Source: Primula veris (taxonomy: Eukaryota > Streptophyta > Magnoliopsida > Ericales > Primulaceae). Taken from it: DNA of 64,000 nt. This document shows positions 15,654-58,055 of this stretch, piece after piece (the first letter of the stretch is position 1; every line of letters starts with the position of its first letter). The position numbers and the translations under genes were made by a program. The DNA is taken from the NCBI GenBank assembly GCA_963682055.1, contig OY821743.1, positions 27,328,702-27,392,701 of the forward strand. Direction: 5' to 3'. The notes beneath the pieces were generated by a model. The model was not told the origin of the DNA, searched no databases, and saw only the letters and a program-made list of their open reading frames with translations.

Positions 15654-17542
15654 GAAAAAAATACATTCGAGTCCCAAACATTTTCTTTGGCACACTGTAA
15701 GCATCATCTTTTACGAAGCCAATCAATTAGCAATTCTTCCATATGAAATCTGTGAAAAGAACTTAATCCATTTAACTTATGAGAGTTCAAGTGCTTCGTT
15801 AAAAGTTCAAAGATCAAAGCAAGAAAAAACATGTTTGGACTTGGCATTTTTTACTTTTTTTCTTTTCAGAGTTTTCTCGGCTTAATATATGCAAGCATGG
15901 CATCTGGTTTGCGAGTGGAGAGTCTGAGAGTATTAACATTAGCTTCTTCGCCATCTTTAAGCCTCCACTCGAAATCTTGTACCAATCTTGCGATTGAGGT
16001 ACACGCAATTAGCATAAGCTTGAAGACACCCCATACACACTCGCTTTCCCCCTCCAAAAAGCCATTGTCTTGAATAAATCATTTTGTTCATATTTTTTGC
16101 CGAGAAACCGCTTGGGGTTCCATTCTTCTGGATTCTCCCACTAGTACACTTTCTCGTCCATGTTACATCCGAAGATATTTATAGCAATCTATGCCAAAAA
16201 AGAAATAATTATGACGTAAAGAAAATGATAGATAGGCACATAATGTCATCCGTGTATCCTACACATAATGTGATACTAAATTCTTTAGATGGAGATCTCT
16301 TACAATAAGCAGATAAATTATTATACTACTCCATGTCTCATAAAAATTAAAATAAGGAAAGTTGATATTTAAAATCTTGAAAGAATAATTTTTTTAGTTT
16401 GACTGAGAAAGAGTTTACTGGGAAAGATCAAGGTTTGGATGTTGCTTCAACCACAATGAAGCAAAATAGGATTGCTTGTAATTTTTGTAAGGTAGAAACT
16501 ATTATCCAGAACCTAGAATTTGGATTTTGGAAGTACAATTTTCGTACACATTAAATCTTATTTTAGGGAAAAACTAATGAGTGGTTTGCTTCAGGGATCG
16601 GGACAAAAGTAGGACAAAGAACATAGGATATGAAAGCCCTTTCTCATCAACTTAAATTTTGGATTATAATTAAGTTGGTGCCAACTTTGGTAACATCGGT
16701 AAGCATACTATTCTAGTCCTGTGGTCGGGCCAAAGATACGGTACTGTTGTTTTCCGAATTATGTTGGAATTACAGAGTTGGTCGAGAACGCGTAATTAAT
16801 GCAACTTGTTTAAGAAATTTAGAAGTTTTTGCGATACATGTAACGTTTACACTGAATCGAGTGCAAGTCGGAAATCGTAGTTAAAAAGTCGCAACTCAGA
16901 TTTCCGACTTTGACCTACAGTGGACCTTTTTTTTTCAAAAAATAAAAATAAAAATACTTTAAAAAAATATTGTTCGCCAATGATTTTTTTAGTTTTTTGG
17001 TAAAATTTTTTTGAAAACTCAAAAAAATAATTGAAAAAATTAACAAACTTAGCAGAATGAGCTTGTAAAGTTAAAAAGTAGTGTAGTGTGTAGTTTAAAA
17101 AATAAAGTAAAACTGAAATACAAGGGAAGTAACTAAGTAAGTACACGGGACAAAACGTAATTTATCGGAAAAAATGCTACATTAGTACTTAACTTATCGT
17201 CTTTTCATAATTTAGTATCCAATTTATGTGCTTTAAATTCGTACCCAAACTTTGTGTTTAACATTCAATCAAGACTCGTATACAATGAAGCAGTATAGAC
17301 CGATACCAAATCAGTAAAAATTGGTCAGTATACATACTAGTTTGATCACGTGTACTGTATGTTGGATTATGCTTTTCAATTAAAAAGTAGATTGCATTGA
17401 AAATAAACCATAAGGTTGGTTATCAATTTAAAATATTATGTAAATCAGGTACTAATTGCTAAAATATCAGGTACCATTTTTACTTTTATCACATTTTCAT
17501 TATTAGTTATATATTTTGAGTGCCACTCATATATATATATAG
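15654..17542. other. Intergenic, no gene supported
   Basis: AT-rich DNA. A short inverted pair (GTCGGAAATCGTAG / GATTTCCGAC) lies at about 16867-16908, next to a long A/T-rich stretch. I see no coding signal. Confidence 0.5.
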
Positions 17543-17578
17543 AGGTTGGATTTTTATACTACACTTTTTCTGAAAAAA

Positions 17579-17730
17579 CGCACAAACCGTACATTTAATT
17601 TACGGTTTACAGAAATTACATGTAAACCGTACATTTAATGTACGGTTTGCAAAAATACATGCAAACCGTACATTTAATGTACGGTTTACATGTAATTTTG
17701 CAAACCGTACATTAAATGTACGGTTTACAT
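17579..17730. repeat. AAACCGTACATT palindrome array, left arm
   Basis: Near-perfect palindromes of the form AAACCGTACATT-(T/A)-AATGTACGGTTT repeat about three times, joined by ACATGTAA or GCAAAA linkers, and are followed by a T homopolymer (17737-17758). The mirror copy is at about 20107-20262. Each unit could fold into a hairpin. Confidence 0.85.
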
Positions 17731-17897
17731 GTAAATTTTTTTTTTTTTTTTTTTTTTTGTAATTTCAATTTGTAAAATAGGAAAAATATATAAAATATGC
17801 AAATCCATAATTCACTTAGCTATATATAATTGTTTGTTGTTTGTTTATATTAATTATAGAAATTATAATAATTGTTGATATTTGTCCCATTTTTTAC

Positions 17898-18342
17898 AAC
17901 TGTTCGGAAAGGAAGCAAGCAACTGTTCGGAAAGGAAGCAAGCAACTGTTAGGAAACGAAGCAAGCAACTGTTCGGAAAGGAAGCAACTGTTCGGAAAAA
18001 ATTTCGAACGGGGCGCTGCCCCGCACCCCGCCCGCTGACCTGGCAGCGGGACCCCAGCCAGGGGCTCTCGCCCCTTGGACCCCGCCAGGGGCTCTGCCCC
18101 TAGGACCCCGCCAGGGGCTCTGCCCCTTGGAACCCCGCCAGGGGCTCTGCCCCTTGGGACCCCGCCAGGGGCTCTGCCCCTTGGAACCCCGTTTCAATTA
18201 TTCATATTCAATTATACGTTGGCTCGACGAGCGTGCACTCCGCACTTCCCTAACTCGTTTCCGAGTTTAACGCATTATTGCATCGGCCTATAATAAATCA
18301 CATTACTACTAAAATACATTGATGATACTAAAATCACCAACA
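17898..18342 (+). repeat. LTR fragment in left arm
   Basis: Matches the 3' part of the solo LTR at 37135-37831, ending in the same AAAATCACCAACA terminus. It contains CAACTGTTCGGAAAGGAAGC repeats, then GGGGCGCTGCCCCGCACCCC and five units around GACCCCGCCAGGGGCTCTGC (the solo LTR has three), then the unique CGTTGGCTCGACGAGCGTGC region. ORFs read through the GC repeat are artefacts of a repeat length divisible by three. Confidence 0.85.
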
Positions 18343-18344
18343 GG

Positions 18345-18559
18345 TTAGGGTTTGTAATTTAGGGTTTAGGGTTTAGGGTTTAGGGTTTGTAATTTAGGAT
18401 TTAGGGTTTAGGGTTTAGGGTTTAGTGTTTAGGATTTAGGATTTAGGGTTTAGTGTTTAGGATTTAGGGTTTAGTGTTTAGGATTTAGGGTTTAGTGTTT
18501 AGGATTTAGGGTTTTTAATTTAGTGTTTAGGGTTTAGTGTTTAGGGTTTAGGGTTTAGT
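18345..18559 (+). repeat. Degenerate telomere-like TTTAGGG tract
   Basis: Runs of TTTAGGG mixed with TTTAGTG, TTTAGGA and GTAATTTAG variants, starting 2 bp after the LTR terminus. They are of plant telomere type but degenerate and internal, so not a chromosome end. Confidence 0.9.
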
Positions 18560-18600
18560 AATTTCAGCAATATTGGTCCAAATCTTTCATCTATAATATA

Positions 18601-18738
18601 CAAACCCTAAATCCTAAACCCTAAACCCTAAACCCTAAACACTAAATTAAAAACCCTAAATTACAAACCCTAAACCCTAAATCCTAAACACTAAACCCTA
18701 AACCCTAAATCCTAAACACTAAACATTAAACCCTAAAT
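18601..18738 (-). repeat. Telomere-like CCCTAAA tract in the core
   Basis: Opposite orientation to the tract at 18345-18559, separated from it by a 41-bp unique stretch. It carries the same variant classes (CACTAAA, TCCTAAA). It has no counterpart in the right arm, so the core carries an extra tract. Confidence 0.88.
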
Positions 18739-18757
18739 TAATTTGCTAACTCAGTAA

Positions 18758-19402
18758 CTAGAAAACCTGAATATTGGGAAAGGTAAAAATATAACTGTTT
18801 TATCAGAAAACTCGGATGATATCGATCATATAAATAGTTTTGAAAAACAACTTTTAGCTATGGATACTCCAGAACAACAGGCTAGTGTTAATCAAAATGT
18901 CTTGAGAAAATCCACTCCTTTTGGCAGAAAATCAGTTCCAACTGCCCCTATGAAGCATTATTATTCTCGACCGAGTCCACAAGATCTTCTTTATGAAGAA
19001 GAAGGTGGTAATATTTTTACTAGTTTTAGTGCTACAACCATTTATGAATGCAATATTGATGGTATGACAGAATACCAAATTATGGTTATGTTACATAGAA
19101 TGACTATGTATTCTACAGTATGTTTAGGTGCTAATAACACCGATTACCAAATTGCTGAATTCATTGTTGCTGGCTTTGCCGGTCAATTACGCGGTTGGTG
19201 GGATAATGTTTTAACCCTTGATCACCAACGCACGATATTAACAGCCACAAAAATGGTTAGGAATCCTATTAAGAAGACTGAACAAGGTGTAGATACTAAT
19301 ACAGATACTGTCGCACCTAATACAGATACTAAGGTGTATATTACAAATGAAAGATTTGGACCAATATTGCTGAAATTACAAACCCTAAACCCTGAACCCT
19401 AA
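18758..19402 (+). pseudogene. Gag/capsid-like ORF fragment in the palindromic element
   Basis: From the ATG at 18860 the frame encodes 180 residues, but it is open without another Met back to the stop at 18755-18757, as expected for an internal piece of a polyprotein. Residues about 60-115 hold a pattern typical of plant retroelement or pararetrovirus-like capsid regions: a YECNIDGMTEYQI segment, then AEFIVAGFAGQLRGWWDN. The C-terminus (TLNPEP) is encoded by the inverted-arm piece and telomere-like repeat, so it is not native. No protease, RT or integrase is present. The parent family is uncertain: Ty3-like LTR element or endogenous caulimovirid-like. Confidence 0.5.
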
Positions 19403-19560
19403 ACCCTAAACCCTAAACACTAAATTAAAAACCCTAAACCCTAAATCCTAAACACTAAACCCTAAACCCTAAATCCTAAACCGTAAACACTAAACCCTAA
19501 ATTACAAACCCTAAACCCTAAACCCTAAATTACAAACCCTAAACCCTAAACCCTAATTTA
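19379..19560 (-). repeat. Telomere-like CCCTAAA tract, right arm
   Basis: Mirror of the tract at 18345-18559, joined directly to the LTR fragment without the last about 60 bp of the LTR. Confidence 0.88.
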
Positions 19561-19945
19561 CAATAATGCGTTAAACTCGGAAACGAGTTAGGGAAGTGCG
19601 GAGTGCACGCTCGTCGAGCCAACGTATAATTGAATATGAATAATTGAAACGGGGTTCCAAGGGGCAGAGCCCCTGGCGGGGGTCCCAAGGGGCAGAGCCC
19701 CTGGCGGGGTTCCAAGGGGCAGAGCCCCTGGCGGGGTCCTAGGGGCAGAGCCCCTGGCGGGGTCCAAGGGGCGAGAGCCCCTGGCTGGGGTCCCGCTGCC
19801 AGGTCAGCGGGCGGGGTGCGGGGCAGCGCCCCGTTCGAAATTTTTTCCGAACAGTTGCTTCCTTTCCGAACAGTTGCTTGCTTCGTTTCCTAACAGTTGC
19901 TTGCTTCCTTTCCGAACAGTTGCTTGCTTCCTTTCCGAACAGTTG
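19561..19945 (-). repeat. LTR fragment in right arm
   Basis: Reverse-complement copy of the LTR piece at 17898-18342, with the same five GC-rich units and the same CAACTGTTCGG repeats. It lacks the terminal CATCGGCC..CACCAACA stretch present on the left. Confidence 0.85.
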
Positions 19946-20300
19946 TAAAAAATGGGACAAATATCAACAATTATTATAATTTCTATAATTAATATAAACA
20001 AACAACAAACAATTATATATAGCTAAGTGAATTATGGATTTGCATATTTTATATATTTTTCCTATTTTACAAATTGAAATTACAAAAAAAAAAAAAAAAA
20101 AAAAAATTTACATGTAAACCGTACATTTAATGTACGGTTTGCAAAATTACATGTAAACCGTACATTAAATGTACGGTTTGCATGTATTTTTGCAAACCGT
20201 ACATTAAATGTACGGTTTACATGTAATTTCTGTAAACCGTAAATTAAATGTACGGTTTGTGCGTTTTTTCAGAAAAAGTGTAGTATAAAAATCCAACCTT

Positions 20301-20322
20301 ATATATATATATATATATATCT
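20301..20322. repeat. (AT)n microsatellite at the element/gene junction
   Basis: Pure AT/TA dinucleotides between the right end of the palindromic element and the Whirly start region. A matching (AT)n flanks the left end (17529-17540). It could serve as a target duplication or as TATA-like sequence. Confidence 0.7.
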
Positions 20323-26995: not shown

Positions 26996-27799
26996 TTAAC
27001 GTACACATTGAATACCATCACAAATTATTAACCACACCGCAAGTAACACCAAACAGACAGCTATGTCAACAACGATAACAATTCTTAGTAAGCGACACCA
27101 CTTATTTCTAACATTTCGGTTACCATTAAGTGACCTTGTCCTCACATAACTCACTTCCTTGTTCAACGAGCTCATCGAATCCGAGCTATTAATCTCACTC
27201 TTAGCTGCTTTGTCCGTAGATGTTCGATGCTCCTCTATCTCAACTCCTCTGATCCCAATCATATGGTCCCTATTCTTCATTTTCTTCTCTTTCTTGCCAG
27301 ACTTGTTCAACAATGGAGCTTTCGTTGAGGTTATAACTTCACTATTAGACTCGATACTCGGTGAAGGAGAGAGACCAGAAGAACAACCAGGCTGCCAACC
27401 ACTGTTGTTTTGAGCTTCCAATGCAGTGATCAAACGATTAATAGCAGGAACTAATTGTTCTTGGACGGAAAGTGCGTTCATATTGGAGAAACTTTTTCTA
27501 AAGCCCTTTTTAGATGAGAGCCTTTTGTATTCGTCCTTAACATGGTTTAGGAACTGGAGAAGGCCGGAATTACAGAGACCTTTATCAGCAATGCCGAAAT
27601 AGACATATCCATCTTCGATAAGAAAACCGTATGTCTTTCTACCCATAGTTTGAAAATAGCATTTGTGATAAGGTGGAGTTTTTTCCAAACACAAAGTAGC
27701 CAAGTTTTGAAGCTCCTGGTCTCCAACACTATGTGAATATAAAACTTGACCACCCTTTGACACTGAGCAGTAGTAAACCGTGTTTTGGTTCGAAGCCAT
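26996..27799 (-). CDS. Phytolongin (Phyl1-type non-SNARE longin)
   Basis: An intact single-exon gene of 267 residues. Phytolongins are plant-specific relatives of VAMP7-type R-SNAREs that keep the longin domain but replace the SNARE coiled coil with a non-SNARE region; they act in endomembrane traffic. Seen: N-terminal longin domain about 5-125 (VYYCSVSKGGQVLYSHS, YGFLIEDGYVYFGIAD, FLNHVKDEYKR), a low-complexity Ser/Lys-rich middle region, and one C-terminal membrane anchor at about 237-260 (LLRIVIVVDIAVCLVLLAVW) followed by a short Cys-containing tail. No R-SNARE central arginine heptad pattern is apparent. The start ATG is the first in frame and gives the usual MASxxNTVYYC-like beginning. 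An AAAG|GTATTACC donor near 28375 suggests an intron in the 5' UTR. Confidence 0.92.
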   Translation of the reverse strand: MASNQNTVYYCSVSKGGQVLYSHSVGDQELQNLATLCLEKTPPYHKCYFQTMGRKTYGFLIEDGYVYFGIADKGLCNSGLLQFLNHVKDEYKRLSSKKGFRKSFSNMNALSVQEQLVPAINRLITALEAQNNSGWQPGCSSGLSPSPSIESNSEVITSTKAPLLNKSGKKEKKMKNRDHMIGIRGVEIEEHRTSTDKAAKSEINSSDSMSSLNKEVSYVRTRSLNGNRNVRNKWCRLLRIVIVVDIAVCLVLLAVWLIICDGIQCVR

Positions 27800-28461
27800 T
27801 GATTTTAAACCAGTATCATAAACAAAAAACCCAACAAATTTTGGTTTTGTGAGCTAATAATCTTGATCCTTGTAATCACTAAACGTTTAGTAAAGGGTCT
27901 TTTGTCTCAAAATCCTTGGCAGTTTTGATATCTATAACCAATCACAAGCATCGACGAGTCAAATATTCCAAATTTTCGCAGCAATTTATCTGAAATTTCA
28001 AAATTCTAAATTCAGACAGTGAACAAATGACTATGGCTTTTGCTAACACTCTGAACAAGAAAGCGAATACAGAGTAGAAGTCGGAGCATATACACTAAAC
28101 TATAAAACCATACAGATTCTTACTCAGAAAACAAAATTCTTCATAACCCTGAGACACTACTCAATATTATGCCTTTTCACAACAAACCCAGATCAAAAGA
28201 TTCAACCTTTATCTCAAATCTGCCAAAAAATTACTAAAAATTCAACTTTTGCTAACTCTAAAATAACAATCTAAGATAAACCCAGTAAAGTTTGGATGAG
28301 TTAATTTAGAATAGAATCACTAGATCGAGCCAATATAATAACCAAGTTAAACAATATATAAATAAAGGTAATACCTTTAGAATCTCAAAAGACCTTGTCT
28401 TGAAGCTAGGTGAAAGTATAGGAGTAGAAGAGAGATGTTGAATGTATTAATTTGTACTTAA

Positions 28462-37129: not shown

Positions 37130-37134
37130 TGTTC

Positions 37135-37831
37135 TGTTAGAAATTTAGGGTATGATAATCCTGGATAACTTCGAAGAATCGTGTTCGTACACTTTCCGAA
37201 CAAAATATTTCGACCCTATTATTGCATGGGTTCACGAAATCTTTGTGGGGATAATTCTTGAAGAACAATCTGTTTCTGGCAAGTAGAATAGATTAGGAAT
37301 GTAGAGAGAATTTTCTTATATGTTTCTGTCACCAAAACCGAGGCCAAATGACTTCTTATATAGGAGATCAATAACCGAAACTGAAAGGAAGCAACTGTTC
37401 CGGAAAGGAAGCAACTGTTGGGAAAGGGTCCAACTATTCAAAATCTTCCGGAAAGGAAGCAACTGTTCCGGAAAGGAAGCAACTGTTGGGAAAGGGTCCA
37501 ACTATTCAAAATTTTCCGGAAAGGAAGCAACTGTTCGGAAAAATTTTCGCTCGGGGCGCTGCCCCGCACCCCGCCCGCTGTCTTGGCAGCGGAACCCCAG
37601 CCAGGGGCTCTCGCCCCTTGGACCCCGCCAGGGGCGCTGCCCCTAGGACCCCGCCAGGGGCTCTGCCCCTTGGAACCCCGTTTCAATTATTCATATTCAA
37701 TTATACGTTGGCTCGACGAGCGTGCACTCCGCACTTCCCTAACTCGTTTCCGAGTTTAACGCATTATTGCATCGGCCTATAATAAATCACATTACTACTA
37801 AAATACATTGATGATACTAAAATCACCAACA
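37135..37831 (+). mobile_element. Solo LTR with 5-bp target duplication
   Basis: 697 bp, beginning TGTTAGAAATTTAGGG and ending AAAATCACCAACA (TG..CA, TGTT/AACA ends). It is flanked by TGTTC at 37130-37134 and 37832-37836, so it is a clean solo LTR. Contents: repeated GGAAAGGAAGCAACTGTT units with a GGGTCCAACTATTCAAAAT spacer, GGGGCGCTGCCCCGCACCCC, three units around GACCCCGCCAGGGGCTCTGC, and the CGTTGGCTCGACGAGCG region. Its 3' two-thirds is the same sequence as in both arms of 17543-20300. ORFs here come from the repeats. Orientation is by the LTR convention that the shared CACCAACA end is 3'. Confidence 0.88.
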
Positions 37832-37836
37832 TGTTC

Positions 37837-50452: not shown

Positions 50453-51995
50453 ATGGAAAGTACAACAAATTCATCGACTTATAATGCTAGTACAAATGTT
50501 AATAGCCCTTACTATGTCAATTTTAATGACATAAATGGATCAAGTCTGGTTAATCCATCTTTGAATGGAAAAAAATTATCATACTTGAAAAAGAGCAATG
50601 AAAATCTTTATAGGGATGAAACACAAGACTGGTTTTATAGATGGAACTCTATTGTGCCCTGGAATTGATACGGGATTGTATATTATATGGAAAAGATGTA
50701 ACCTAATTGTGGTATCTTGGATCTTAAACTCTGTGAGCAATGATATCTCTCAATCAATATTTTACATTGAGAATGCTAGTAAAATATGCTTTGTGTTGCA
50801 AGAGAGATATTCTCAGGGAAATGAACCTAGAATTTTTAAGATTCAGCAAGATATACATTATTTACATCAAGGAAATATTAGTGTTTCAGCTTATTTCACA
50901 AAATTGGAGAGTTTATGGTTAGATCTGCCTACTCTCAATCCTTTACCTATGTGCACTTATAGTGCAATGAACAAGTGTAGCTATGATCTTATAGAAAAGT
51001 TCAAAAAGAGGGAGGAAAATCATTTTAGAATGACCTTTTTGATGGGTCTAAATGATTCTTATTCTACTATAAGAGGTCAAATTCTAATAATGAAACATAT
51101 TACTCCTATAAATGAGGTTTTTCAAATGATCATTCAAGAAGAAAAATAGAGAGGTATGGGGGTACAGAACATAGATTTTCATGACCAGATGACTATGAAT
51201 GTGGGTACAGAACAGAATACTGTTGCTGTTGCATATGGAAATAGATCTAGAATGGAAGTTAGATGCTCTTATTATCACAAAGTTGGGCATATAGAAGATA
51301 AATGTTATAAACTGCATGGGTATCCTCCTACTTGAAAAATAACTGGTTCAAGTGGGCAAAAAAATAAAATTAGGGTAATCAAAATGGACCTCCTTTTGCT
51401 CATCAAGTTAGTGGAATTATGGATATTACTCCTCTTGGGTCTGAAAAATATGATTTCCCTATAACTCAGCAACAGTTTAATCAGTTTGTGGCTAGTTTCT
51501 AAAGGCAAATGAAAGGAGTTGGTGGATACTCTGGCTATAAAGAAGAAGGATCTAAAGCTGCTAACATTGGTGTTTCTAATCTGGCTTTCACCAATATAGC
51601 TTGTAAGTCTCAACATTTTACTTGTGCTAATGCTTTTTCAGTACATAGTAAAATTGGACAATCTACACATTGGTTAATAGATATAGGTGCTAGTGAGCAT
51701 AAGGCCAACTCTCTTAAATATTTTTCGACAAATATATAGTCAAATTTGATTATGAAGTTTATTTACCAAATGGACAAAGTAGTTTATTTACCAAATGGAC
51801 AAAGTGTGGCTGTTACACACATTGGAAGTGTCCATTTGGGTATATGGCTAGCTATGAGAAATGTGTTATGTGTGTCTAAGTTTGGATATAATCTAATATC
51901 TGCTAGTAAGATCACAAGGGATGCACATTGTTGTTTATACTTTGTTAACAAATATTGTATAATACAGGACCTGACAACATGAAAGATGATTGGAA
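50453..51995 (+). pseudogene. Copia gag-protease region, broken
   Basis: The gag starts MESTTNSSTYNAS and continues, after a frameshift near 50590, as a capsid-like region (AMKIF-type start to EVFQMIIQEEK, stop at 51147-51149). The zinc knuckle follows the stop in the same frame (about 51263-51304), but its second Cys is Tyr (CSYYHKVGHIEDKC). The protease motif is LIDIGASEH at about 51675-51702. A 25-bp stretch (AGTTTATTTACCAAATGGAC then AAAGT) is tandemly duplicated at about 51755-51804. Plainly non-functional. Confidence 0.8.
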
Positions 51996-52019
51996 AGGCT
52001 ATTGAGAGTCAGGGTTTGT

Positions 52020-52890
52020 ACTATCTGCAAAGACCAGAACATTCTTCATCTTTTACTACTTCTGTACAAGTTTCCTCTTTGTTATGGCACAATATGTTAG
52101 GTCATGCTTCTCATGACCAGATTAGTATGTTGAAATCATAAACAAATGGCTTATCTCTTTTAGAAAACCAGTCTTGTGATGTATGTCATTTAGCCAAACA
52201 ACATAGGCTTTTTTTTTTCACTTAGTAGTATACAAACTACTGAAACTTTTGAGATGATTCATTATGGCATGTGGGGACCTTATAGTGTTGTTTCAAATAA
52301 AGGTTTTCATTTCTTTCTCACTATAGTTGATGATTTTACTAGATGTACCTGGGTGTATATGTTGAGAAATAAAAATGAAACTACCAATCTATTACCTTCT
52401 TTTGTCAACATGGTAAAAACTCAATACAATAAGATTGTGAAGATTATAAGGAGTGATAAAGGAATTGATTTTTTTTGTCAAGAATTCTTTCAAAACACTG
52501 GTATAGTACATCAAACAAGTTGTGTAGGTACACCACAACAAAATGGGGTAGTTGAAAGGAAATACCAACATCTTCTCAATGTTTCTAGATCATTGAGATT
52601 TCAATCTAAGTTACCTTTGGAGTTTTGGGATGACTATATATTAGCTGCTACTTATCTAATAAACAGATTGCCAAGTAAGAAATTACAAAATAAGTCTCCT
52701 TTTGAAAGGCTACATAAAAAAGTTATTTTATCTGAACTACCTGAGAGTATTTGGTTGTCCTGCTTATGCAAGTTCTTTGACTAGAAATCGTAGTAAATTT
52801 GATGCAAGGGCAAGGAAATGTGTTTTTTGGGGGTACCCTTATGGAACTAAAGACTATAAGTTAATGGATTTAGAGAATCAATAATTTTTT
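52020..52890 (+). pseudogene. Copia integrase region, broken
   Basis: The pre-integrase zinc-binding part (LLWHNMLGHASHDQISML..CDVCHLAKQ) has an internal stop. The core domain (52254-52784) shows FFLTIVDDFTRCTWV, IIRSDKG, TPQQNGVVERK and [10 protein letters not shown]. The first core segment reads HYGMWGPY where the family has an Asp before WGPY, so a catalytic acidic residue seems lost. A frameshift near 52740 moves the C-terminus ([24 protein letters not shown]) to another frame. Confidence 0.82.
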
Positions 52891-53229
52891 GTATCAAGAG
52901 ATGTGATTTTCTATGAAGAACAATTCCCATATATAAGTGTTTCTTCTCCAAATATACATTTATTTCCCACAAATATTCAAAATCCTAATACAGACACCAC
53001 TAAAAGGCCTTTTGTTGAACCTACTCCAAATGAGCCTATATCTTCACCTTCTGTTGTTCTGTCTGAATTTCTCAACCAGTCGGAAAATCTTGTAGACCTA
53101 CTAAGCCACCATCAAGTCTAAAGATATATGAATGTAACTTCACTTCTTCTAAACAACCATCTTTGTTTCCCATAAAAGCTTACCATACTTACTCTAAAGT
53201 TTCTGAACAACACAAGAAATTTTATTTTT

Positions 53230-54767
53230 CAGTATTACAAAGAAGCTGTTTTAAATCCAAATTGGATTGAAGCCATGACAACTGAAATAACAGCTCTAGA
53301 AAACAACAAGACTTGGACTCTTACGAATTTGCTTATTGGAAAGAAAGCAATTGGGTGTAAATGGGTGTATAGAGTAAAGTATAATGTTGATGGAAGTATA
53401 GAAAGTTATAAAGTAAGATTAGTTGCTAAGGGTATACACAAGAAGATGGCATAGACTATGAAGCTATGTTCAGTCATGTGGCAAAGATGACTACAGTGAG
53501 AGTTCTAATAGCTGTAGCAAATGGCTGGTTCTTAGAGCAGTTAGATGTCAACAATGCTTTCTTACATGACGATTTAAAGGAAGAAGTATATATGACATTG
53601 CCACTTGGTTTTGTAAAACAAAATTCTCACCAGGTATGCAAACTCAACAAATATCTTTATGGTCTAAAACAAGCAAGAAGACAATGGTTTCAAAACCTTA
53701 TTGATGCTTTGCAAAAAATTGGTTTTCTACAAAGCCAAACAGATACTTCATTGATTACTCTTAGACAAGAGAATGCTTATATGGTACATCTTGTGTATAT
53801 GGATGATGTAATTATTTCCAGCAATGATCATTTTTTAGTTTCTATTGTGAAGACCTATCTTGATCACACTTTTAAGATAAAAGATTTGAGAAAATTAAAG
53901 TATTTCCTAGGGTTGGAAATAGCTAGATCGTCTAAAGGATTGACTGTTTGCCAAAGAAAATATATACTTGAACTGCTCACAGATACATGTCTCCTAGATT
54001 GTGCACCTGTCAAATTCCCTATGGAAACAAACTTGAAACTTAGTAAAAATGATCTAGAGCCATTAGAGGATTCAAGTGTGTATAGAAAATTGATTGAAAA
54101 ATTACTTTATATGACAATCACTAGGCCTGATATAACTTTTGCTGTCAACACACTTAGCCAATTCTTAGAGAAACATTGTGCTTCTCATTATAATGCTGTC
54201 ATAAGAGTGCTCAAATATCTCAAGGGATCTCCTTCTCAAGAGTTGTTCTATCCTAATGCAAATAAATTACAACTAAAAGCAAGTGTGGATGCTGACTGGG
54301 CTTCTTGTGTTGATACAAGAAAGTCAGTAACTGGTTTTTGTGTATTTCTTGGTGATGCTTTGGTTTCATGGAAGACCAAAAAGCAACAAGTGGTGTCTAG
54401 AAGCACTACTGAATCTGAATATAACACCTTAGCTGTATGTACTACTGAAATGGTATGGTTAATGAAGATGATGAAAGATCTATTAATTGAGCAAAGTAAG
54501 ATTATGGTATATACTGACATTAAATCTTCTATTGCACTTGCTGAGAATCCAGTTCATCATGAACGTACCAAGCACACAGAGATTGATTGTCACTATGTAA
54601 GAGAACAAATTCAAGCTGAGATAATTCATTTGATGCATATTTACTCATATAATCAAGTTGCAGACATCTTGACAAAGCCACTCGGATTGCATTTATTCAG
54701 TACTTTTGTGGGCAAGATGGGTGTTTTAGATATTCACACTCCATCTTGGGACGACATGTTAAAATAG
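53230..54767 (+). pseudogene. Copia reverse transcriptase-RNase H region
   Basis: The RT begins about 53235 (YKEAVLNPNWIEAM, WVYRVKYNVDGSIESYK) with a frameshift near 53440. It then runs open for 433 codons from 53466: QLDVNNAFLHDDLKEEVYM, CKLNKYLYGLKQA, the catalytic YMDD-type VYMDDVIISSND, then RNase H with DADWASCVDTRKSVTGFCVF, STTESEY and the C-terminal HTEIDCHYVREQI, VADILTKPL. This is the best preserved part of the element. Confidence 0.88.
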
Positions 54768-56464: not shown

Positions 56465-56537
56465 GCATGTGTAACGACCCGGTCCCACGGACCGAACCGC
56501 CACGCCCGTATCAACAATATTGTCCGCTTTGGCAAAA

Positions 56538-56600
56538 CTTCCCAGGGGGTCACCCATCCTGGTACTACTCCAAGTTAAGCACGCTTAACTGTGGAGTTTC
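56538..56600 (-). ncRNA. 5S rRNA-like segment of the Cassandra LTR
   Basis: The minus strand reads AACTCCACAGTTAAGCGTGC, then GAGTAGTACCAGGATGGGTG and ACCCCCTGGGAAG, matching the internal promoter and 3' half of plant 5S rRNA. The same segment recurs in the other three LTRs (near 56940-57000, 57338-57402, 57830-57892). It is a retroelement-borne 5S domain, probably keeping RNA polymerase III promoter motifs. Not a functional 5S gene. Confidence 0.82.
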
Positions 56601-57430
56601 GTCCTCGCTATTGTGCCGCACGACTTTAAAAGGCCTTGTTAATAGGAAATGGATCTTTAAGCTCATATACTGCACGGGTACTCTCATATCTGGGCGATGT
56701 GGGACTGACGCACAACACCGCACCACAGAATTTCCTTCATGGAAATCTGGGTCATCACAATCACCCTCCCTTTAGGCATGACGTCCTCGTCGGGCACGTC
56801 GTCCTTCAGGGGCTCACACACACGTGCTAGTCCCCATATTTCCGGCCAGATAGAGGTTCTGATACCATATGTAATGACCCGGCCCCACGGACCGAACCGC
56901 CACGCCCGTATCAACAATATTGTCCGCTTTGGCACAACTTCCTAGTGGGGTCACCCATCCTGGTACTACTCGAAGTTAAGCACGTTTAACTGTGGAGTTT
57001 CGTCCTCGCTATTGTGCCGCATGGCTTTAAAAGGCCTTGTTAATAAGAAATGGATCTTTAAGCTCATATACCACACGAGTACTCTCGTATCTGGGCGATA
57101 TGGGACTGACGCACAACACCGCACCACAGAATTTCCTTCCTGAAAATCTGGGTCGTCACAATCACCCTCCCTTTAGGCACGACGTCCTCGTCGGGCACGT
57201 CGTCCTTCAGGGGTCCACACACACGTGCTAGTCCCCATATTTGCGGCCAGATAGAGGCTCTGATACCACCCGTAACGACCCGACCCCACGGACCGAACCA
57301 CCATGCCCGTATCAATAATATTATCCGTTTTGGTACAACTTCCCAGGGAGGTCACCCATCCTGATATTACTCCAAGTTAAGCACACTTAACTGTGGAGTT
57401 TCGTCCTCGCTATTGTGCCGCATGGCTTTA

Positions 57431-57604
57431 AAAGGCCTTGTTAATAAAAAATGAATCTTTAAGCTCATATACCGCACGGGTACTCTCGTATCTGGGCGAT
57501 GTGGGACTGACGCACATAAAAGGTCTTGTTAATAGGAAATGGATCTTTAAGCTCATATACCGCACGAGTACTCTCGTATCTGGAAGATGTGGGACTGACG
57601 CACA
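57431..57604 (-). repeat. 87-bp tandem duplication inside one Cassandra LTR
   Basis: AAAGGCCTTGTTAATA... (57431-57517) is repeated as AAAGGTCTTGTTAATA... (57518-57604), making this LTR 389 bp against about 290 bp in the other three. The two halves differ at several sites. Confidence 0.85.
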
Positions 57605-58055
57605 ACACCGCACCACAGAATTTCCTTCATGGAAATCTGGGTCATCACAATCACCCTCCCTTTAGGCATGACGTCCTCGTCGGACACGTCATCTTTCAGG
57701 GGCTCACACACACGTGCTCGTCCCCATATTTCCGGCCAGATAGAGGCTCTGATACCATCTGTAATGACCCGGCCCCACGGACCGAACCGCCACGCCCGTA
57801 TCAACAATATTGTCCGCTTTGGCACAACTTTACAGGGGGGTCACCCATCCTGGTACTACTCCAAGTTAAGCACGCTTAACTGTGAAGTTTCGTCCTCGCT
57901 ATTGTGCCGCACGGCTTTAAAAGGCCTTGTTAATAGGAAATGGATCTTTAACCTCATATAACACACGAGTACTCTCGTATCTGGGCGATGTGGGACTGAC
58001 GCACAACACCGCACCACAGAATTTCCTTCTTGGAAATCTGGGTCGTCACAGCATG

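Follow-up and report, generated by a model that had tools for sequence, protein, structure and literature searches.

Foldback and Mutator-like elements as a frame of reference

Mutator-like elements (MULEs) are flanked by target-site duplications (TSDs) of 9-11 bp, and among their derivatives are Pack-MULEs and MULEs with multiple terminal inverted repeats (TIRs), in which TSDs of the 9-bp class go together with acquired DNA, rearranged TIRs and amplification as a unit (PMC3310237). The MuTAnT foldback MULEs of Medicago truncatula are short and non-autonomous, with long modular foldback TIRs and 9-bp TSDs at AT-rich insertion sites, and a mudrA-type partner has been described for them (PMC4486113). 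The foldback elements Tetris and Galileo have long TIRs with internal tandem arrays, and Tetris copies are devoid of a transposase (PMC4079207), and Mu killer of maize is a MULE-derived inverted duplication for which a hairpin RNA has been proposed (PMC3440606). What is said here and below of these systems reflects portions of the cited papers. We compare with them a palindromic element at positions 17542-20300 of a 64,000-nucleotide stretch of Primula veris DNA (the window; contig OY821743.1 of assembly GCA_963682055.1), of which the original prediction, made from the letters alone, held that no standard class explains it. In our view such a class does exist: with a probability of roughly 0.92, the palindrome is a copy of a recently spread, non-autonomous foldback MULE, because it combines exact 9-bp TSDs and long hairpin TIRs with termini homologous to those of a resident MULE.

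The comparison supports this placement and at the same time brings out what is peculiar to the Primula family. Its TSD of 9 bp lies within the MULE range, its TIRs are long (a 358-bp query matches at 96-100% identity), and the arms, about 1 kb each in an element of 2.76 kb, carry hairpin, GC-rich and telomere-like arrays, as befits a foldback element. Like MuTAnT, the element is short, non-autonomous and built on modular foldback TIRs, and the window copy sits in a (TA)n run. The terminus, GAGGTTGGATTTTTATACTACAC, is by eye unlike the published MuTAnT TIR mask, however, and whereas MuTAnT insertions lie mostly inside (TA)n, a pure TA run is found at only one of 25 target sites of the present family; furthermore, the portion of that report at hand mentions no captured cargo derived from a long terminal repeat (LTR), from telomere-like DNA or from a virus (PMC4486113). 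With Pack-MULEs and multi-TIR MULEs the family shares acquired DNA, rearranged TIRs and spread as a unit, but its cargo is retrotransposon-derived, telomere-like and putatively viral, is partly present in inverted duplicate, and includes, in place of ordinary host gene sequence, a fragment that we attribute to an endogenous virus (PMC3310237). Tetris and Galileo are Drosophila elements, and the part of the source consulted makes no mention of retrotransposon or telomere-like arms (PMC4079207). Finally, Mu killer duplicates part of a transposase gene (PMC3440606), whereas the arms of the Primula element consist of TIR, LTR and telomere-like DNA.

Copies in the genome and their target-site duplications

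The mobility of the element is indicated by its recurrence. The genome of origin (436.5 Mb, 34 contigs) was searched with positions 17543-17900 (358 bp), with scoring limited to the best 40 of 1798 candidates; all counts are therefore lower bounds biased towards close copies. At least 82 matches were obtained, 41 of arm length and 41 short, the latter stemming from the self-complementary hairpins. The arm-length matches (40 over the full 358 bp and one over 343 bp, at 96-100% identity) occupy at least 27 places on several contigs, including the window, and the other 26 were retrieved. Both ends are present at 25 of the 27, among which 17 copies carry the complete central fragment described below (the coat fragment) and eight do not; the copies at L048 and L056 belong to the latter but retain one end of it, and the coat-bearing copy at L047 has a shortened left arm. 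Exact 9-bp TSDs, with the terminal base counted in, flank 24 of the 25 two-ended copies (18/19 in the first batch and 6/6 in the second, where the right end was allowed to slide by one base), as against none of 342 mismatched-end pairings from 19 copies, even with one mismatch tolerated. The ends themselves vary slightly: the terminal GAGGTTGG differs by a base in some copies, and the right terminal base is C in 17 of the 19 two-ended copies checked first, compared to T in the window copy. The original prediction would have been refuted by termini that never recur as a mobile unit, and on this count it has been borne out.

Structure of the palindromic element

The window copy spans 2759 bp, from a terminal G at 17542 to a terminal T at 20300, one base more on the left than originally proposed, and lies between direct copies of ATATATATA at 17533-17541, inside the (TA)n run, and at 20301-20309. 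The left TIR (17542-17755, plus strand) opens with the terminus named above, continues as a AAACCGTACATTTAATGTACGGTTT palindrome array with a 39-bp period, which amounts to a long hairpin, and closes with poly-T; its inverted counterpart occupies 20087-20300 (minus strand). The hairpin of about 115 nt is far more stable than expected by chance (z -15.3 folded as DNA and -15.6 as RNA), and the terminal 22-mer, with up to three mismatches, occurs within the window only at the two ends of the element and in none of 100 shuffles. Inward of the TIRs follow an AT-rich subterminal segment (17758-17896, plus; 19946-20084, minus) and a piece of an LTR with five GC-rich units (17897-18342, plus), of which the right arm carries a version lacking about 60 bp on the telomere side (19561-19945, minus). 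The left arm then passes into a degenerate TTTAGGG array (18345-18558, plus) and an inverted copy of the final ~45 bp of the coat fragment (18558-18602, minus), followed by a third telomere-like array (18602-18737, minus) in the same orientation as the array of the right arm (19380-19556, minus). Between the latter two lies the putative fragment of an endogenous caulimovirid coat-protein gene (the DUF7746 region; 18740-19379, plus), with an open frame at 18758-19402.

Over their outermost 621 bp the arms are 100% complementary (17543-18163 against 19679-20299), and the whole inverted repeat pairs 17543-~18602 with ~19335-20299; of the 945 columns aligned, 938 are identical and seven mismatched, and the alignment contains a further 129 gap bases. 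A single 1-bp indel lies inward of the perfect stretch, after which the inner telomere-like arrays vary by substitutions and unit-length indels; the near-identical TIR of the window copy extends over about 740 bp. Most of what had been read from the letters thus stands, namely the near-perfect palindrome with arms of about 1 kb and inversely identical ends, the order of modules, the captured LTR and telomere-like DNA in the arms, the GC repeat with five units per arm as against three in a solo LTR of the window (5.2-5.3 and 3.2 units by our count), and the lack of a transposase, none having been found inside the element. The arms keep a common order without being fully equivalent, given the ~60 bp of LTR present only on the left; the supposed short unique tag is in fact the inverted end of the central open stretch, and the coat fragment at the centre had not been named.

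A resident MULE family as the likely source of transposase

A non-autonomous element depends on a transposase supplied in trans, for which the genome offers a plausible candidate. At L054, a 1065-bp member of the family, flanked by the TSD TAAATTTAT, is inserted in a larger MULE that encodes a MULE transposase domain (PF10551, E 2.9e-27) and, in another open reading frame (ORF), a plant mobile domain (PF10536, E 6.9e-27). The right terminus of this host element is 76% identical to the window terminus over 150 bp, the very end included, and the AT-rich segment occurs twice upstream of the plant mobile domain ORF at 96-98% identity. At L062, where the transposase match has an open frame of 915 aa, a terminus situated about 2 kb further downstream is 81% identical over 97 bp to that of the window, with which it shares GAGGT, TACTACA, CTGAAAAAACGC and the AAACCGTA hairpin. 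When the L054 transposase served as the query in the same genome, at least 150 matches at 93-100% identity were obtained among the best 150 of 1597 candidates, and at least 56 of these 150 have open frames of 907-917 aa, measured from stop to stop irrespective of gene models. Taken together, the homologous termini suggest that this abundant resident family is the likely supplier of the transposase. The region L054:1200-10000 represents a very abundant MULE family of this genome, the transposase being accompanied at this locus by the plant mobile domain ORF.

Provenance of the cargo

The LTR material can be traced to a retrotransposon family that is represented in the window by a solo LTR at 37135-37831 (697 bp, TG...CA; minus strand by eye) with the 5-bp TSD TGTTC at 37130-37134 and 37832-37836 (also by eye). 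This solo LTR is separate from the palindromic element and related to its LTR piece, which corresponds to one end of the 697-bp LTR. The donor LTR has at least 40 near-full-length matches in the genome, the window included, among the best 40 of 472 candidates, and at least four same-strand pairs lie about 4.4-4.6 kb apart, as in full-length elements. In one such pair, C5, a run of C adjoins the inner side of the LTR end used in the arms, and a reading frame on the opposite strand begins beside the other LTR end. Read by eye, these flanks may be the polypurine tract and the gag start, respectively, in which case the arm piece would come from upstream U3; in the solo LTR, the TATA-like stretch falls outside the part carried in the arms. 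No telomere-like DNA was found at the matching LTR junction of C5, and the LTR/telomere junction therefore belongs to the composite element.

The centre of the element (18740-19379, 640 bp) matches DUF7746 (E 4.1e-32), a domain on which our literature search found no paper. Thirteen database relatives were found and three of these were scanned for domains; the Caulimovirus coat domain scored above the cut-off in two (E 1.5e-6 and 4.2e-13) and gave no match in the third. Since two relatives carry this domain, we take the centre to derive from the coat gene of an endogenous caulimovirid. An endogenous caulimovirid proper would be an integrated viral stretch with boundaries of its own, whereas here a coat fragment of about 640 bp is flanked by telomere-like arrays and enclosed by TIRs and TSDs. 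Searches of viral contigs gave no match for the hairpin unit or the terminus and, for the coat fragment, only two stretches that fit a pattern, neither of which encodes a relative; phage records gave no match. The fragment spans the identical 639 bp in all 14 copies aligned. Among these, 16 of the 17 substitution columns are non-synonymous and one is synonymous, against a neutral expectation of 0.757 non-synonymous, which gives no sign of purifying selection in a comparison of few, non-independent copies where the direction of change is set by the majority and L053, L055 and L058 are left out. Some copies have internal stops in the fragment. The coat cargo is probably a passenger that confers no benefit on the element.

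Single assembly and recent spread

The internal junctions tell the same story in copy after copy. In the 14 coat-bearing copies tested (L053, L055 and L058 were left out), the LTR-telomere junction is present in all 14, and the junction between the inverted coat-fragment end and the telomere-like array, as well as the right LTR break, in 13 each; the misses are at L041, where the search string is absent although the inverted end matches at 95%, and L047. Because these junctions are common to the copies, there was a single founder: the composite was built once and then spread as a unit, in accord with the single inverted duplication originally proposed. In 17/17 coat-bearing copies the longer LTR piece flanks the coat fragment from the same side, so there is no sign that the middle has inverted.

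The spread appears to be recent. In thirteen copies compared with that of the window, mismatches range from 1 to 61 and gap bases from 1 to 542. The closest, L031, lies on the same chromosome at a distance of about 4.9 Mb and shows a single mismatch and a single gap base over 2758 aligned positions. The high identity of the arms had been ascribed to recent origin or gene conversion, and it is the former that holds up. The arms differ by a mean of 11.3 positions within a copy and 11.0 between copies, with no excess similarity within copies that would betray gene conversion, in a weak test where both means are inflated by L053 and L058 (74 within-copy differences each, probably from a mis-cut block), L042 gave no within-copy value and L047 was left out; a tree of the arms held too little signal to speak to gene conversion, with 18 of 22 inner branches open and two well supported. 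Since the arms are about equally different within and between copies, their likeness reflects a young family and gene conversion is unneeded. LTR material is found in at least one arm of all 25 two-ended copies and the coat fragment in 17, a distribution that would fit acquisition of the LTR piece before the coat fragment.

The best-supported scenario is as follows. The recurrent ends, the exact TSDs and the common junctions show that a single founder picked up the LTR piece, the telomere-like DNA and the caulimovirid coat-gene fragment, turned palindromic when part of it was duplicated in inverted orientation, and then spread as a unit. Both the cargo and the palindrome could be products of break repair at the element, through template switching or filler synthesis. 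The hairpin TIRs would be bound by a MULE transposase acting in trans, most likely that of the resident family, which would move the element and to which end the cargo presumably contributes nothing.

Competing explanations

Several observations weigh against the scenario of a foldback MULE. The loci examined yielded no autonomous partner whose TIR matches exactly, no terminus-pattern search having been completed; the homology of the termini to elements bearing PF10551 is only 76-81%, and neither a left end nor a TSD could be defined for the putative autonomous element. Among the copies, L034 is two-ended without an exact TSD, and L051 and L052 show one end only within about 9.9 kb, as truncated or much longer elements would. 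The 9-bp TSD of the window copy is uninformative on its own because it sits in a (TA)n microsatellite. At least some short copies, as L048 and L056 show, are deletion derivatives, which weakens the case for capture of the LTR piece before the coat fragment.

Among the alternatives, a foldback element of another superfamily, of the hAT or P/Galileo type, that merely resembles a MULE fares best and still appears quite improbable. Foldback structure is thought, in the part of the source at hand, to arise in several lineages (PMC4079207), and the exact autonomous partner has not been recovered; the TSD of 9 bp and the homology of the termini to a PF10551-bearing element of the same genome both speak for a MULE instead.

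Near-perfect palindromes are a classical assembly hazard, and at a single locus a palindrome born of repair looks no different from a transposon. An assembly artefact or a one-off, immobile local inverted duplication, through a chimeric contig or fold-back repair, is nevertheless very hard to reconcile with at least 27 places on several contigs and with exact TSDs in nearly all two-ended copies (24/25). We grant similarly little credence to the idea that caulimovirid DNA integrated separately at each of several (TA)n sites, with the TIR-like arms as repair debris: the central ORF is indeed coat-related, but it is the TIR and not viral DNA that borders the (TA)n run, all but one of the 25 target sites lack a pure TA run, the viral fragment comprises the same 639 bp in the 14 copies compared, and the copies have in common TIR ends with 9-bp TSDs. 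Retrotransposition via the LTR pieces has practically nothing to commend it apart from the presence of such pieces in both arms and the abundance of the donor LTR family (at least 40 matches), given that the pieces are inverted and truncated and that the unit is bounded by TIRs and 9-bp TSDs, as opposed to 5 bp at the solo LTR of the window.

Implications

If the foldback MULE interpretation is correct, the unusual part is the composite cargo, above all the caulimovirid coat fragment spread by a DNA transposon, of which no description was found in the titles and abstract openings listed by our literature searches. In a 2023 review, high similarity among endogenous caulimovirid copies is read as a sign of recent integration; apart from single integrations, the routes given in its section 3.2 are segmental or genome duplication, hybridisation and proliferation of endogenous viral sequences, and spread by DNA transposons is not among them (PMC10377300). 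A DNA transposon, though, can generate viral copies that are almost identical with no need for renewed infection: 17 copies of the coat fragment lie inside a TIR element with its own TSDs, and therefore neither copy number nor near-identity has to signal a recent infection. Within one genome, the family moreover illustrates how a foldback MULE can convert retrotransposon and telomere-like scraps into arm sequence.

A more speculative possibility, which we regard as unlikely, is that the family is a mobile hairpin-RNA locus, with read-through transcription of the ~1-kb palindrome predicted to produce double-stranded RNA. Such RNA would cover the MULE TIR, the retrotransposon LTR, telomere-like DNA and 45 bp of the viral coat gene, and each insertion would then be a silencer, akin to Mu killer, of the transposase source, the retrotransposon and perhaps the virus.

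Other features of the window

Elsewhere in the window, a broken Copia-type retrotransposon occupies 50589-54767, with RVT_2 and integrase core domains above the cut-off and a gag match below its own. Tandem units of 401 and 489 bp at 56466-58005 are reminiscent of TRIM elements of the Cassandra type, which carry 5S-like LTRs; Rfam gave no match in the window at gathering scores, the 5S rRNA match within these units (56521-56621, minus strand) being weak at 27.6 bits against a gathering score of 38. At 26996-27853 (minus strand) there is a phytolongin/VAMP-like ORF with a Longin domain match below its cut-off, the closest relatives of which, among the best 120 of 209 matches, are from eudicots, with 70% identity to the best and 57% to the best named one.
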